A stretch of DNA of 64,000 nt. It comes from Wenzhouxiangella marina (GTDB lineage Bacteria > Pseudomonadota > Gammaproteobacteria > Xanthomonadales > Wenzhouxiangellaceae). The translations under genes and the position numbers were made by a program. Below the pieces are notes generated by a model. The model saw only the letters and a program-made list of their open reading frames with translations, was not told where the DNA came from and ran no database searches. This document shows, one piece after another, positions 31,910 to 44,569 of the stretch (the stretch's first letter is position 1; each line of letters begins with the position of its first letter). Location: NCBI RefSeq assembly GCF_001187785.1, contig NZ_CP012154.1, forward strand, positions 1,606,501 through 1,670,500. The letters are read 5' to 3'.

Positions 31910-34543
<2,634 letters not shown>

Positions 34544-34563
34544 GTTTGGCTTCTAACTGATTG

Positions 34564-34591
34564 AAAAAGCCCGCGGTTTGCGGGCTTTTTT
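34564..34591. terminator. bidirectional intrinsic terminator between alaS and tRNA-Ser(CGA)
   Basis: AAAAAGCCCGC, a short loop, then GCGGGCTTTTTT. The A-run on the left and T-run on the right make it functional for alaS on the plus strand and for the convergent tRNA-Ser on the minus strand. Confidence 0.9.
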
Positions 34592-34596
34592 AATGG

Positions 34597-34688
34597 TGGC
34601 GGAGAGGGAGGGATTCGAACCCTCGAACGGGCGTTCACCCGTTAACGGTTTTCGAGACCGCCGCATTCGACCACTCTGCCACCTCTCC
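34597..34688 (-). tRNA. tRNA-Ser, anticodon CGA
   Basis: An intact class II tRNA of 92 nt with encoded CCA. The acceptor GGAGAGG (5' end at 34688) pairs with CCTCTCC (34601-34607), discriminator G, CCA at 34597-34599. The anticodon loop reads CTCGAAA, giving CGA, which decodes UCG. It has a long variable arm and a standard T-loop TTCGAAT. Upstream on the same strand are two tandem broken copies of this gene. Confidence 0.96.
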
Positions 34689-34760
34689 GTAAACTCAATT
34701 GTCGCCGCCGAATTTCAGCGGATTGCCCGGTTTGGTCGATCCGGGCGGTTCTGACGAACC

Positions 34761-34952
34761 GCGGAGGGATAGCTGTCGCTTCGCTCCAGCGAGCTCGCCT
34801 GCGGCTCGGTTCGAACCCTCGAACGGGCGTTCACCCGTTAACGGTTTTCGAGACCGCCGCATTGGCTTCGCGGCTGTGCCGCTCGTCCGGCTGCGCCGGA
34901 TTGCTTCGCACCGAGCTCGCTACGCTCGGTTCGACCACTCTGCCACCTCTCC
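34761..34952 (-). pseudogene. broken tRNA-Ser(CGA), copy 1
   Basis: Pieces match the intact gene at 34761-34770 (3' end shortened by six bases, so the acceptor stem cannot form), 34811-34863 (T-loop through anticodon) and 34932-34952 (D-arm and 5' acceptor). A 40-nt string (34771-34810) splits the T-loop just before TCGA and a 68-nt string (34864-34931) splits the D region at the same motif. It cannot give a normal tRNA. Confidence 0.88.
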
Positions 34953-35024
34953 GTAAACTCAATTGTCGCCGCCGAATTTCAGCGGATTGCCCGGTTTGGT
35001 CGATCCGGGCGGTTCCGACGAACC

Positions 35025-35216
35025 GCGGAGGGATAGCTGTCGCTTCGCTCCAGCGAGCTCGCCTGCGGCTCGGTTCGAACCCTCGAACGGGCGTTCACCC
35101 GTTAACGGTTTTCGAGACCGCCGCATTGGCTTCGCGGCTGTGCCGCTCGTCCGGCTGCGCCGGATTGCTTCGCACCGAGCTCGCTACGCTCGGTTCGACC
35201 ACTCTGCCACCTCTCC
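35025..35216 (-). pseudogene. broken tRNA-Ser(CGA), copy 2
   Basis: Identical in structure to copy 1, shifted by 264 bases, with the same two insertions. It is the most promoter-proximal copy on the minus strand. Confidence 0.88.
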
Positions 35217-35265
35217 GAGACCTGGTGCGTTCGGCGATTTTCTGCCGGGGTCGCTTGGGGCGCGT

Positions 35266-35294
35266 ATTGTACAGAATCTTGGCCGCTGGGTGAA
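35266..35294 (-). promoter_or_regulatory. probable promoter of the tRNA-Ser(CGA) array
   Basis: On the minus strand, TTCACC (35289-35294), 17 bases, then TACAAT (35266-35271). It lies between the cupin gene stop and the outermost broken copy, so a transcript would pass through both broken copies before the intact tRNA. Each copy also has its own weaker GACAAT just before the tRNA 5' end. Confidence 0.45.
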
Positions 35295-35312
35295 CGCGTG
35301 TCTGCGCCAGGT

Positions 35313-35696
35313 TCAGTGATGTTCTGCGGCGTCGGCTTCGGCCTTGGTGTCGTGCTTGACGCCAGCCGCATGCTCGGGTGGGGCGTAGACGGTGTACAGG
35401 CGCAGCGGCTTGGCTCCGGTATTGATGAAGTTGTGCTGAGACCCCGCGTGCACGAAGATCAGGTCGTTGGCGCCGATTTCGCGAGCCTGGCCTTCCAGCA
35501 CGGCCTGGCCCTGGCCTTCGACGATCACCAGGATCTGGTCGTGGTCATCGTGGACTTCTGCACCGATCTCGTCGCCGGGCTGGATGGTCATCAATACCAC
35601 CTGGGCTTCCTTGCCGGTGATGACTTCGTCCCGGAAGGCGTCGTTGTCCATCGTCATCTTGACGATCGGGACGATGTTCTTGTCGATCTCGCTCAT
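35313..35696 (-). CDS. cupin-domain protein
   Basis: A 127-residue single-domain cupin. Motif 1 is GDEIGAEVHDDHDQILVIVEGQGQAVL, with metal-binding residues E-x-H..H/D..; motif 2 is GANDLIFVHAGSQHNFINTGAKPLRLY. The start at 35696 (MSEIDKNIVPIV) was chosen because the upstream frame enters tRNA-related repeats. It resembles small mannose-6-phosphate isomerase-like cupins found in many proteobacteria. Its substrate is unknown. It ends in a His-rich tail (AEHH). Confidence 0.85.
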   Translation of the reverse strand: MSEIDKNIVPIVKMTMDNDAFRDEVITGKEAQVVLMTIQPGDEIGAEVHDDHDQILVIVEGQGQAVLEGQAREIGANDLIFVHAGSQHNFINTGAKPLRLYTVYAPPEHAAGVKHDTKAEADAAEHH

Positions 35697-35817
35697 GCTT
35701 CGATCTCCATGGGGGAGTGGGGATAGTGGGTAGTTTAGCGGTTTTGCATGGAAGGGTTTGGGGAAGAGGTTGGTTCGAACGGGGTTCCAATCCGTGGTCC
35801 CCTTGTCCACGATCATC

Positions 35818-35845
35818 AAAAAAGCCCGCACACGGCGGGCTTTTT
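35818..35845. terminator. duplicate terminator hairpin
   Basis: AAAAAAGCCCGC, loop ACACG, GCGGGCTTTTT: an exact copy of the hairpin at 35984-36011, carried along in the 166-base duplication. Confidence 0.75.
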
Positions 35846-35851
35846 CGATGA

Positions 35852-35870
35852 TGGCGGAGAAGGAGGGATT
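35852..35870 (-). pseudogene. 3'-end fragment of tRNA-Ser(GCT)
   Basis: The last 19 bases of the tRNA including CCA (35852-35854), acceptor 3' strand and the T-stem. It stops inside the T-loop at GGATT and is joined to a palindrome string. Confidence 0.85.
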
Positions 35871-35940
35871 GCTGCGCCACCTTCGGTGGCTTGTCCTTCG
35901 GACTGTCGCTGCGCTCCAGCGAGCTCGCCTTCGGCTCGGT
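35871..35940. repeat. string of triloop mini-palindromes joined to the tRNA T-loop
   Basis: Consecutive short palindromes: GCCACC-TTC-GGTGGC, GTCC-TTC-GGAC, then a 38-nt block (35903-35940) that matches 34773-34810 in the Ser(CGA) array at 36 of 38 positions. It ends GCTCGG directly before TTCGAAC. Confidence 0.85.
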
Positions 35941-36036
35941 TCGAACGGGGTTCCAATCCGTGGTCCCCTTGTCCACGATCATCAAAAAAGCCCGCACACG
36001 GCGGGCTTTTTCGATGATGGCGGAGAAGGAGGGATT
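35938..36036. repeat. second copy of the 99-bp direct repeat
   Basis: Same sequence as 35772-35870; here it runs on into the intact tRNA-Ser(GCT). Confidence 0.9.
35984..36011 (-). terminator. intrinsic terminator of tRNA-Ser(GCT)
   Basis: GCCCGC/GCGGGC stem flanked by A6 and T5, just beyond the tRNA 3' end on the minus strand. Confidence 0.85.
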
Positions 36037-36110
36037 CGAACCCTCGATGAGGCTATAAACCCCATACTCCCTTAGCAGGGGAGCGCCTTCAGCCACTCGG
36101 CCACTTCTCC
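36018..36110 (-). tRNA. tRNA-Ser, anticodon GCT
   Basis: An intact class II tRNA of 93 nt with encoded CCA (36018-36020). Acceptor GGAGAAG (36104-36110) pairs with CTTCTCC (36022-36028). The anticodon loop CTGCTAA gives GCT for AGC/AGU codons. Long variable arm. Partial copies lie on both sides: a 3' fragment at 35852 and a 5' fragment at 36284. Confidence 0.96.
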
Positions 36111-36161
36111 GTAAACTCGAATTGTAACGTTGCCGCCGGTTGCCGGCGACATGATCGACTG

Positions 36162-36283
36162 GGTCGATCGGGCGGTTCTTTCGAACCGCGGGGGAGCGCG
36201 TTGACTGCACGCCCTACGGGCGCTTGCCCTTCGGGTTGCTCCGGTCACTGCGTTCCCTGCGCATCGTCCTCGCGATGCTCGGG
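36162..36283. repeat. palindrome string and leader-like segment upstream of tRNA-Ser(GCT)
   Basis: Begins GGTCGATCGGGCGGTTCTTTCGAACCGCGG, sharing its core with the Ser(CGA) units (34734-34764). Mini-palindromes CGCCC-TAC-GGGCG and CCC-TTC-GGG follow, ending GATGCTCGGG against the tRNA 5' fragment. No gene is seen from here to 36482. Confidence 0.75.
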
Positions 36284-36305
36284 TCAGCCACTCGGCCACT
36301 TCTCC
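36284..36305 (-). pseudogene. 5'-end fragment of tRNA-Ser(GCT)
   Basis: The first 22 bases of the tRNA (acceptor strand, D-stem) followed upstream on the minus strand by the same AGTTTAC leader as the intact gene. The tRNA is cut at TCAG and joined to a palindrome string. Confidence 0.82.
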
Positions 36306-36482
36306 GTAAACTGTATTGTGCCACCTAGGAAGGCGGTTTTGCGGGCAAAGGGGGCTGCTTGGCTCGCGAAGCGCGAAAGGATAACGCCAAAGCCTGTTCG
36401 GGTAAAGACCTGTTGCTGCTAGAATGCCGCAGGAGTATTCACAGTCCGGTGCAATCAGCCGGGCCAAACCGTTGAGGCATTG

Positions 36483-37085
36483 ATGTTGGAAGAGACCCGC
36501 AAGCGAGACAATCGGCGTTCAGTGCGCAGTATCGACTTCTTTCGCGGATTCATGCGCAGTCCCGAGCAGGTGGGTTCGATCATCCCCAGCTCCCGCTTCA
36601 TGGAGCGTCGGATCACGGCGATGTCCGAGCTGGCCGACGCCAGGTGTGTCGTCGAACTCGGGCCCGGTACCGGTGGCACGACGCGGGCGATCCTCGAAGC
36701 GATGCCTGCCGATGGGCGACTGCTGACGATCGAGCTGGATCCGCAGTTTTCGGCCATGCTCGATGACATCGGTGACCCACGCCTGATCAGCCACATCGGG
36801 AGTGCGGCCGATCTGGGTGAAATCCTGGCGAGTCACGGGCTTCCCGGCCCGGATGCCGTCATTTCCGGCATTCCTTTCTCCACGATGCCCAGAGAGATCG
36901 CGGATACGATCATCGAAGCGATCCGGGACAACCTGGCCCCTGGCGGTCGTTTTCTGGCCTACCAGTTTCGGGCCCATGTGGCGAAGTTCAGCGAGCCACT
37001 GCTCGGCAAGCCGGAGGCCTTCGAGTTCGAGCTGTTCAATGTGCCTCCGATGCGTTTCTGGCTCTGGCGGCGGCCGGGTGCCTGA
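36483..37085 (+). CDS. class I SAM-dependent methyltransferase (phospholipid methyltransferase-like)
   Basis: A 200-residue protein. FFRGFMRSPEQVGSIIPSSRFMERRI is the substrate-side segment seen in PmtA-like phosphatidylethanolamine N-methyltransferases and rRNA adenine dimethylase relatives. SAM motif VVELGPGTGGTTRAILEAM, then LLTIELDPQFSAML, DAVISGIPFSTMP, LAPGGRFLAYQF. Likely substrate is a membrane lipid, but this is inferred from family resemblance. The ATG at 36483 is preferred over a TTG one codon before. Confidence 0.78.
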   Translation: MLEETRKRDNRRSVRSIDFFRGFMRSPEQVGSIIPSSRFMERRITAMSELADARCVVELGPGTGGTTRAILEAMPADGRLLTIELDPQFSAMLDDIGDPRLISHIGSAADLGEILASHGLPGPDAVISGIPFSTMPREIADTIIEAIRDNLAPGGRFLAYQFRAHVAKFSEPLLGKPEAFEFELFNVPPMRFWLWRRPGA

Positions 37086-44088: not shown

Positions 44089-44324
44089 TTCATTCTGCCC
44101 CGATGTCTTCGGGGCCCCCGGAATCACTCTCTTCGCGTCAGAGCCATTGCTGTTGGGCGGCGGGCAAGGCCATTGCTTCGCTGGGTCTGCGCGCTCTACC
44201 GCTACGGCTCCGCGGAGTGGGGTGGCTACGCCTGCGTTCTCGAACGCTTTGCGTCCGAACCACTCCGGCTACGCCGATTGTTCATGGCGCTTCAGGTGCT
44301 GAAGACTGGGAACTTGGGGGGTGA
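44089..44324. repeat. degenerate tRNA-associated repeat region between the two tRNA-Leu genes
   Basis: No protein gene is supported. It holds mini-palindromes such as CCG-CTA-CGG and CGGC-TAC-GCCG. Its last 40 bases (from 44285, GCGCTTCAGGTGCTGAAG onward) duplicate the DNA found just downstream of tRNA-Leu(CAG) at 44443-44482. CGCTCTACCGCT is shared with the string at 44373-44441. Confidence 0.7.
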
Positions 44325-44372
44325 TGGTGCCCAGGGGGAGACTCGAACTCCCACATCCTTTCGAATACTAGC
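44325..44372 (-). pseudogene. 3'-half fragment of tRNA-Leu(CAG)
   Basis: 48 bases identical to the 3' half of the intact gene at 44483-44530, from CCA through the T-arm and variable arm to the anticodon-stem ACTAGC. There the copy breaks and continues into the palindrome string. Offset from the intact gene is 158. Confidence 0.88.
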
Positions 44373-44441
44373 GGGTGAGGTGGCTTCGACTGCGCTCACG
44401 AGCGCGATGCGCTCTACCGCTCCGTCTACGCCGGTTGTCGA
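44373..44441. repeat. palindrome string replacing the 5' half of the tRNA-Leu(CAG) copy
   Basis: Contains GCGCTC-AC-GAGCGC and other short inverted repeats, ending in CGGTTGTCGATGACGCTTCAGG, which leads into the intact copy's downstream flank. Confidence 0.7.
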
Positions 44442-44482
44442 TGACGCTTCAGGTGCTGAAGACTGGAAACTTGGGGGGGTGA

Positions 44483-44569
44483 TGGTGCCCAGGGGGAGAC
44501 TCGAACTCCCACATCCTTTCGAATACTAGCACCTGAAGCTAGCGCGTCTACCAATTCCGCCACCTGGGC
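44483..44569 (-). tRNA. tRNA-Leu, anticodon CAG
   Basis: 87 nt with encoded CCA (44483-44485). Acceptor GCCCAGG (44563-44569) pairs with CCTGGGC across the 3' end. The anticodon loop TTCAGGT gives CAG for CUG codons. It has its own promoter at 44623-44651. Confidence 0.96.

Follow-up and report, generated by a model that had tools for sequence, protein, structure and literature searches.

The closest described relatives of the repeats considered here are the tandem units at the E. coli tyrosine tRNA genes tyrT and tyrV and the RNA family RtT (RF00391). According to passages of one study, the RtT RNA is released from the tyrT transcript and affects the stringent response; the same passages mention tyrT together with many further tRNA operons of E. 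coli and report Northern signals for two RtT RNAs of Actinobacillus (PMC4986893). Passages of other papers place rtT-like elements within BIMEs and RtT RNAs in other bacteria (PMC2965389), and a 175-bp VNTR at the rtT RNA of Salmonella (PMC2658671). In the K-12 sequence, the tRNA 3' half recurs behind tyrV at +162, +340, and +518, with a unit of 178 bp. Each recurrence follows GGTTCG(A/G) and a hairpin string, one more lies between tyrT and tyrV, and the sequence record annotates rttR RNA at these repeats as a small RNA. The unit is present in 4680 of 5426 E. coli genomes at 1 to 9 places each (median 2), a count in which neighbouring units may be merged into one place.

Other described systems also invite comparison. 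The hallmarks of REP sequences are their tetranucleotides and palindromic-unit structure. Rickettsia palindromic elements lie mostly inside protein genes that stay functional. Elements that integrate into tRNA genes are known to cross over at the T-loop.

Here, we describe tRNA repeat units of Wenzhouxiangella marina. The window, meaning the whole stretch of DNA analysed, is 64,000 nucleotides long and covers positions 1606501-1670500 of the single 3,675,202-bp contig (genome label G000). By alaS, the closest named relatives are Wenzhouxiangella sp. 15190 (78%) and XN79A (73%). In architecture and core sequence, the window units match the tyrT/tyrV RtT kind. In both cases, tandem units lie behind a TTCGAA-type tRNA gene and each ends with the tRNA's last 17 nt, an arm is complementary to the tRNA end, and GGTTCG(A/G) is followed by a hairpin string (CGAGC..GCGAG..CCCGAAGGGC.AAGC..AA) and TCC. 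The RtT feature of a hairpin string with a CCGAAGG core between GGTTCGA and TCC is likewise present here. The differences are that 11 tRNA genes are involved here, whereas the E. coli comparison covers the tyrosine locus only, and that upstream near-whole copies, D-loop modules, and module-module tandems occur here, with scores below the RF00391 cut-off. The parallel with E. coli tyrT/RtT was missing from the original prediction made for this DNA.

The other systems resemble the window in part. REP/BIME sequences with TnpA-REP (RAYT) share the short GC-rich hairpins in mosaic strings that carry no gene of their own, but the window modules are confined to tRNA copies, have fixed T-loop ends, and are accompanied by no consistent Y1 enzyme. 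Rickettsia palindromic elements likewise put hairpin modules inside genes, RNA genes included; here, in contrast, spare tRNA copies are hit. Islands integrated into tRNA genes, with attL/attR at the T-loop, also show a duplicated tRNA 3' end and tandem accretion, whereas here the units are 140-264 bp long without cargo, and the same tRNA's flanks are duplicated.

The window holds intact tRNA-Ser(CGA) and tRNA-Ser(GCT) genes with partial copies beside them, as follows.

34597..34688, minus strand: intact tRNA-Ser(CGA), T-loop TTCGAAT (ARAGORN; RF00005)
34666..35193, no strand given: 264-bp tandem unit in two copies, 34666-34929 and 34930-35193 (repeat search of the window)
34745..34762, minus strand: hairpin GCGGTTC-GTCA-GAACCGC behind the truncated 3' half of Ser-CGA copy 1 (from the sequence; equivalents in loci L170, L183, and L186)
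34763..34769, minus strand: truncated tRNA 3' half (TCCCTCC) of Ser-CGA copy 1 (from the sequence)
34770..34809, minus strand: short hairpin module M (40 nt) in the T-loop of Ser-CGA copy 1, holding the first 38-nt string
34810..34861, minus strand: body of tRNA-Ser(CGA) copy 1 from D-loop to T-loop, with no difference from the gene
34862..34929, minus strand: hairpin module (68 nt) in the D-loop of Ser-CGA copy 1, after GGTCGAA^T
34930..34953, minus strand: 5' part of a tRNA-Ser(CGA) copy
35034..35073, minus strand: M in the T-loop of Ser-CGA copy 2 (40 nt)
35126..35193, minus strand: hairpin module (68 nt) in the D-loop of Ser-CGA copy 2
35772..35851, minus strand: trailer, terminator, and antisense-like arm a second time, module-free and ending GTTCGAACC (repeat search)
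35852..35868, minus strand: extra copy of the tRNA-Ser(GCT) 3' half, TCCCTCCTTCTCCGCCA
35869..35939, minus strand: hairpin module M (71 nt) between GTTCGAA and TCC, holding the second 38-nt string
35940..36017, minus strand: Ser-GCT unit of trailer, terminator-like hairpin, antisense-like arm, and GTTCGAA
36018..36110, minus strand: intact tRNA-Ser(GCT), T-loop TTCGAAT (ARAGORN)
36172..36189, minus strand: hairpin GCGGTTC-GAAA-GAACCGC behind the Ser-GCT 5' copy
36201..36283, minus strand: hairpin module (83 nt) in the D-loop (GGCTGA) of the Ser-GCT 5' copy
36284..36306, minus strand: 5' part of the Ser-GCT copy that bears the 83-nt D-loop module

Read in tRNA sense, the twice-repeated 264-bp Ser-CGA unit lies upstream of the gene and runs from the 5' tRNA part through the D-loop module and the body to the T-loop module after TTCGAA, then to the truncated 3' half, the hairpin, and the promoter-side region of the next copy. 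At Ser-GCT, the order is trailer, terminator-like hairpin, an arm with partial complementarity to the end of the tRNA, GTTCGAA, M, and the 3' half, after which trailer, terminator, and arm come again. Here, a 99-bp repeat (35772-35870 and 35938-36036) recurs at a spacing of 166 bp, and by sequence comparison 35852-35868 is identical to 36018-36034 of the Ser-GCT 3' half.

The original prediction held that one 38-nt palindromic string sits at the T-loop of two tRNA-Ser genes and marks a mobile or recombinogenic element. The strings at 34773-34810 and 35903-35940 do match at 36 of 38 bases, and both abut TTCGAAC. A whole-genome search gives the 44-nt match at the Ser-GCT place E = 2.6e-13, so it is not a chance match. 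The T-loop junction also stands, but the strings lie in partial tandem copies rather than in working genes: the broken copies had been taken for genes, and ARAGORN finds intact tRNA-Ser(CGA) and tRNA-Ser(GCT) alongside. What had been read as a second insertion in the D region of Ser-CGA is indeed a D-loop site, occupied in both copies by a 68-nt relative after GGTCGAA. The 83-nt relative in the D-loop of the Ser-GCT 5' copy had been overlooked. The term recombinogenic fits the tandem units. For annotation, the warning is that partial tRNAs with inserts are neither tRNA introns nor damaged essential genes.

Genome-wide, the units are partial tandem copies of tRNA gene ends, 140-264 bp long, and modules occur at 11 tRNA genes of many kinds. 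A mechanical test of the own-genome loci finds extra 3' halves at Arg-ACG, Arg-CCT, Ser-GCT, Leu-CAG, Thr-CGT, and Arg-CCG, and reading of the flanks adds copies at Gln-CTG, Glu-TTC, Ser-TGA, Ser-GGA, and Ser-CGA. Thr-TGT also has units, which an island has apparently shifted to a distance of about 8 kb. Tandem units stand directly behind the tRNA gene at Ser-GCT, Arg-CCT, Arg-CCG, Arg-ACG, Thr-CGT, and others. Such downstream units consist of the last ~17 nt with CCA, the trailer, in many cases a hairpin resembling a terminator, and an arm that in part complements the tRNA 3' half; the copies in front of a gene hold a near-complete tRNA. The final ~17-19 nt of the tRNA that the unit includes, with CCA, are decayed in Gln-CTG, Ser-TGA, and Ser-GGA. 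The repeats at E. coli tyrT are familiar chiefly as the origin of a single small RNA; in this genus, relatives stand at about a dozen tRNA genes.

The T-loop sequence sets the rule. Among the 42 tRNAs that ARAGORN reports in the own-genome loci taken, M is present at 10 of 16 with a TTCGAA T-loop versus 0 of 24 with other loops (Fisher p = 9e-6), and at one of two with TTCGAC (Arg-CCT yes, Cys no). At Leu-CAG (TTCGAG), the 3' part is duplicated without M.

Whether the string prefers tRNA sequence depends on how much of it is considered. The short string CTCGGTTCGA alone is not tRNA-specific: it occurs at 30 places in the genome (3 for the reversed control), sorted by eye into 13 tRNA copies, one intact tRNA-Cys T-loop region, and 16 tRNA-free 3-kb loci, and the module is absent from the flanks shown at these 16. 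The whole module, by contrast, is confined to tRNA copies. A BLAST search of the own genome with a 371-bp query gives no convincing copy elsewhere, only four weak isolated hits (E 0.026-0.64). R1, a covariance model built from Wenzhouxiangella copies alone, has 10 of 10 own-genome matches at tRNA copies in a scan that scored 150 of 6704 first-look candidates, and the model misses some module types, for example that of Gln-CTG. Genome-wide dispersal between genes in the TnpA-REP style is therefore not what is found.

The genus shares these elements. R1 matches in 25 of 30 Wenzhouxiangella genomes, and the pattern GGTTCGAACCGAGC occurs in 18 of 25 (own included) and in 2 of 16 other genomes of the order, where the two carriers have no tRNA in their 3-kb loci. 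A GGTTCGAACCGAGC match is not always a module: locus L174 (G001) lacks both tRNA and module, and L178 (G006) retains only CCGAGC. Four small genomes of 1.3-2.1 Mb (G004, G007, G021, and G024) show neither the GGTTCGAACCGAGC pattern nor R1; G024 is 98% complete, G007 95%, and the other two 63% and 84%.

Using nhmmer, we obtain 111 distinct copies from 115 loci; these loci are a part of all genus matches, and the copy counts apply to them. A tRNA shares the locus in 95 of the 111, always at a distance of 500 bp or less and always in the direction of the module, and since the copies share ancestry, these 95 are not independent. The tRNA sense also follows in part because each module lies beside a tRNA 3' half. 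The remaining 16 copies have no intact tRNA in the locus, and 15 of them still precede a tRNA 3' half. Tabulated in tRNA sense for the 64 near-full copies, the 5' flanks are TCGAA in 51, GTCAA in 5, TCGAC in 4, TTGAA in 2, CTGAC in 1, and AGCAA in 1; the junction is nearly constant, as had been suggested. The D-loop module site of the Ser-CGA copy recurs in G009 and G015, and across G000, G009, and G015 it reads GGT(C/T)GAA^TGCGG, which is T-loop-like. In the genus loci, an extra 3' half accompanies 53 of 79 TTCGAA tRNAs versus 5 of 26 with other loops (p = 3e-5), a count biased by the selection of loci for their modules; the five other-loop cases are Arg-TCT (two), Arg-CCT (two, TTCGAC), and Arg-TCG (one).

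Module identity is highest within genomes. Modules at different tRNAs of one genome are 0.774 identical (86 pairs; 56 near-full copies), compared with 0.736 for the same tRNA in different genomes (146 pairs) and 0.725 for pairs sharing neither (1295 pairs). Label shuffles reach the observed excess in 0 of 2000 trials for genome and 121 of 2000 for tRNA. The higher within-genome identity indicates that modules spread or were homogenised within genomes.

Near-whole copies in front of the tRNA gene, their T-loop holding the module, are also seen at L170, L181, L183, L186, and L191. These copies end early in the acceptor stem and continue with a hairpin, e.g., GCGGTTC-GAA-GAACCGC, and then with the promoter side of the intact gene.

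Beyond the genus, kinship with RtT is recognizable at lower scores. RF00391 matches the whole own genome once (E = 0.0068), gives no hit at E<=1 in 34400-36500, and no Rfam family exceeds its cut-off for the window units. The best own unit among the loci scored reaches 27 bits and falls short of the RF00391 gathering score of 45 bits. Because the units tested lie below this cut-off, we call them RtT-like and file them as a variant. In the reverse direction, R1 ranks the E. coli modules 1, 2, 3, and 6 of 15 hits in the 94 kb searched, the first two of them with the module ends placed exactly, at modest E-values (0.038-0.35). RF00391 is found at E<=0.01 in 81 of 369 genomes of the class, 23 of them over the cut-off, and in one of 14 control genomes, which is E. 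coli. We opened 25 RtT loci from other genera, chosen by RtT score; of their tRNAs, 19 of 25 of the TTCGAA type (Gln, Tyr, Ser) carry the additional 3' half versus 0 of 16 with other T-loops (p = 7e-7). As a baseline, an extra 3' half accompanies 6 of the 84 tRNAs in 78 alaS loci from other genera, mostly behind a hairpin string ending AA; after collapsing, the small numbers are 6 of 71 for TTCGAA and 0 of 9 for others. The module core CAGYCCGAAGGRCAAGC occurs in two of the 369 class genomes, our own and that of L246, where neither tRNA nor module is present; since RtT modules differ, RtT units escape this search.

The novel T-loop junction TTCGAA^TCC contains a hairpin string of mostly about 40-100 nt. 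From 120 candidate arrays, we kept the 42 that start with CCGA, end like CAA, are shorter than 110 nt, and do not extend another; an additional left-end type (GTTCGAC-TTGCGCGC...) and chance hits were dropped. The skeleton of the 42 is CCGAGC-hairpin-GCGAG(CTCG/GACG)-hairpin-CCGAAGG.CAAGC-hairpin-GCGCAG(T)CAA, with variable stems, some of them shortened. The predicted unit RNA can fold such that the tRNA 3' half closes the structure. An arm/3'-half complementarity of at least 10 of 12 pairs is seen in 38% of 29 units from other genera and in 23% of 62 units from the genus, against a null of 13% in both, and is thus weakly above null. The motif GRTGAGMA recurs in 13 of the 29 and 12 of the 62. 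Together, arm complementarity and motif suggest some constraint on structure.

Our main reading, to which we assign a probability of about 0.55, is that these are RtT-like tRNA repeat units whose modules and duplications spread through homology or microhomology and need no dedicated enzyme. The notion is that module and duplication would spread jointly. The hairpins, flanked by (G)GTTCGAA and AATC(C), sequence common to most TTCGAA-type T-loops, could stall replication forks and so bring about template switching or homeologous recombination, both from one tRNA locus to another and among tandem copies. An event would persist as long as it left one intact tRNA and would be lost if it destroyed the sole copy; any unit RNA would be a by-product or a later function. 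The T-loop rule, fixed ends, single orientation, and tandem units together argue for a DNA-level process guided by the conserved T-loop; the recombination step is one that we infer from sequence comparison. Also consistent with it are the shared unit anatomy, the within-genome identity excess, the T-loop-like D-loop sites, the 1 to 9 places in E. coli, and the lack of a Y1 match in several near-complete carriers. Counting against it are the RF00391 shortfall, the modest R1 E-values in E. coli, and the exceptions to the T-loop rule, namely the Leu-CAG duplication without M and the five other-loop tRNAs of the genus; the hint of structural constraint given by arm and motif also weighs against it. 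In addition, the D-loop site GGCTGA and the module-module junctions (GTCAA^CCGAG and AGCAA^CCGAG) have only 2-3 bases in common with the T-loop, which looks more like a target motif than homology. A broader proposition, tentative and one that we would on balance not hold, is that the modules are enzyme-free selfish DNA of gammaproteobacteria that invades T-loops, and rarely D-loops, by homology to GGTTCGAATCC, with Wenzhouxiangella as the runaway and tyrT as the tame case. Such selfish modules would spare the host because each event duplicates the tRNA end that it breaks.

The main rival is RNA function. The units may have been kept because the transcript past the tRNA gives a structured RtT RNA that the tRNA 3' half closes and whose hairpins vary while the fold is retained; such an RNA could, for instance, act as a regulator when amino acids are scarce. 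The annotation of rttR as a small RNA in E. coli and the RtT passages of PMC4986893 speak for this idea, as does the tRNA sense of the copies. Folding is better than that of shuffles for the Arg-ACG unit (z -5.2), the window Ser-GCT unit (z -2.1), and E. coli (z -2.0), but the modules alone fold modestly better (Ser-GCT, z -1.5 as RNA and -2.0 as DNA) or no better than shuffles (the 34773-34809 string, z 0.4 as DNA). RNAalifold keeps 11 pairs, with changes on both sides of the stem at 6 of the 11; template switching also perfects palindromes, so these changes are no proof. The T-loop sequence rule, the D-loop modules, the module-module tandems, and the decayed 3' halves at Gln-CTG, Ser-TGA, and Ser-GGA are left unexplained, and we consider RNA function an unlikely origin of the repeats. 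We find a non-autonomous mobile element more doubtful still. A single-stranded-DNA hairpin enzyme (IS200/IS605-like, another HUH enzyme, or a hairpin-recognising recombinase) would insert the module after (T)CGAA or TCAA in the loops of tRNA-gene hairpins. The sharp ends (CCGAG...CAA), the flanks TCGAA, TTGAA, or GTCAA in 58 of 64 near-full copies, and insertion behind another module suit such an enzyme. GNA loops are very stable in DNA, and 71 of 92 perfect triloop hairpins in the 42 arrays have one. The own genome has one match to Y1_Tnp (PF01797), at 29 bits (cut-off 23) and E 2.8e-6.

The distribution of this domain, however, undercuts the linked transposase or TnpA-REP-like enzyme that had been proposed. 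We rejected TnpA-REP/Y1 as the driver after a search of 41 genomes, in which it is not consistent with the carriers: PF01797 matches in only 7 of 25 genus genomes, own included, and the 18 without a match include the 99% complete carriers G003, G013, and G020. Since TTCGAA is a palindromic target, an enzyme would be expected to insert in both orientations and elsewhere, yet all 95 are in tRNA sense, none was found away from tRNA copies in the own genome, and the phage and plasmid collections hold no match. Homology or microhomology template switching is thus favoured. The least probable explanation, and a very unlikely one, is that the units are tyrosine-recombinase footprints, i.e., tiny integrative elements or remnants with the tRNA 3' end as attL/attR. 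It accommodates the duplicated 3' ends in tandem and is in keeping with the apparent real island in tRNA-Thr(TGT), but the duplicated end includes the same tRNA's terminator and arm, which differ per tRNA, upstream copies duplicate the 5' side, units of 140-264 bp are too short for an integrase gene, and the junction contains a module rather than an uninterrupted core.

Regarding phage or plasmid origin, which we also rejected, a 211-bp query has no match in 50,697 phage and 72,556 plasmid records. Among viral contigs, 28 match a 17-nt pattern, none with a tRNA copy or module in the flanks shown; at one (L265), a tRNA gene lies about 1.3 kb from the match.

In the literature searched, titles and abstract openings hold nothing on T-loop module insertions at many tRNAs or on repeats of this type in Wenzhouxiangella, and passages of the report on the AB-CW3 genome (3,844,697 bp) make no mention of them (PMC7691419). 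Within these searches, the features that seem new are the occurrence at about a dozen tRNA genes in a single genome, the T-loop modules in near-whole copies, the D-loop modules, and the TTCGAA rule. The shared rules, that is, TTCGAA T-loops, fixed ends, tRNA sense, and GNA triloops, make the origin of the repeats testable through close strains.

Some loci show related arrangements. At L205 (about 3055.8-3063.8 kb), some 8 kb separate tRNA-Thr(TGT) from a displaced tRNA 3' part and two Thr units; apparently, a genomic island entered this tRNA gene after the units had formed. Upstream of tRNA-Ser(GGA), at L157, 5' copies are broken after GGGCTC by a different, module-free insert. At tRNA-Leu(CAG) (window 44288-44530), a ~158-bp tandem copy of the 3' part starts near the variable-arm TTCGAA and has an antisense-like anticodon-arm piece (44288-44305 and 44445-44462) and a hairpin-rich insert; this unit resembles the others except that its junction falls elsewhere in the tRNA.
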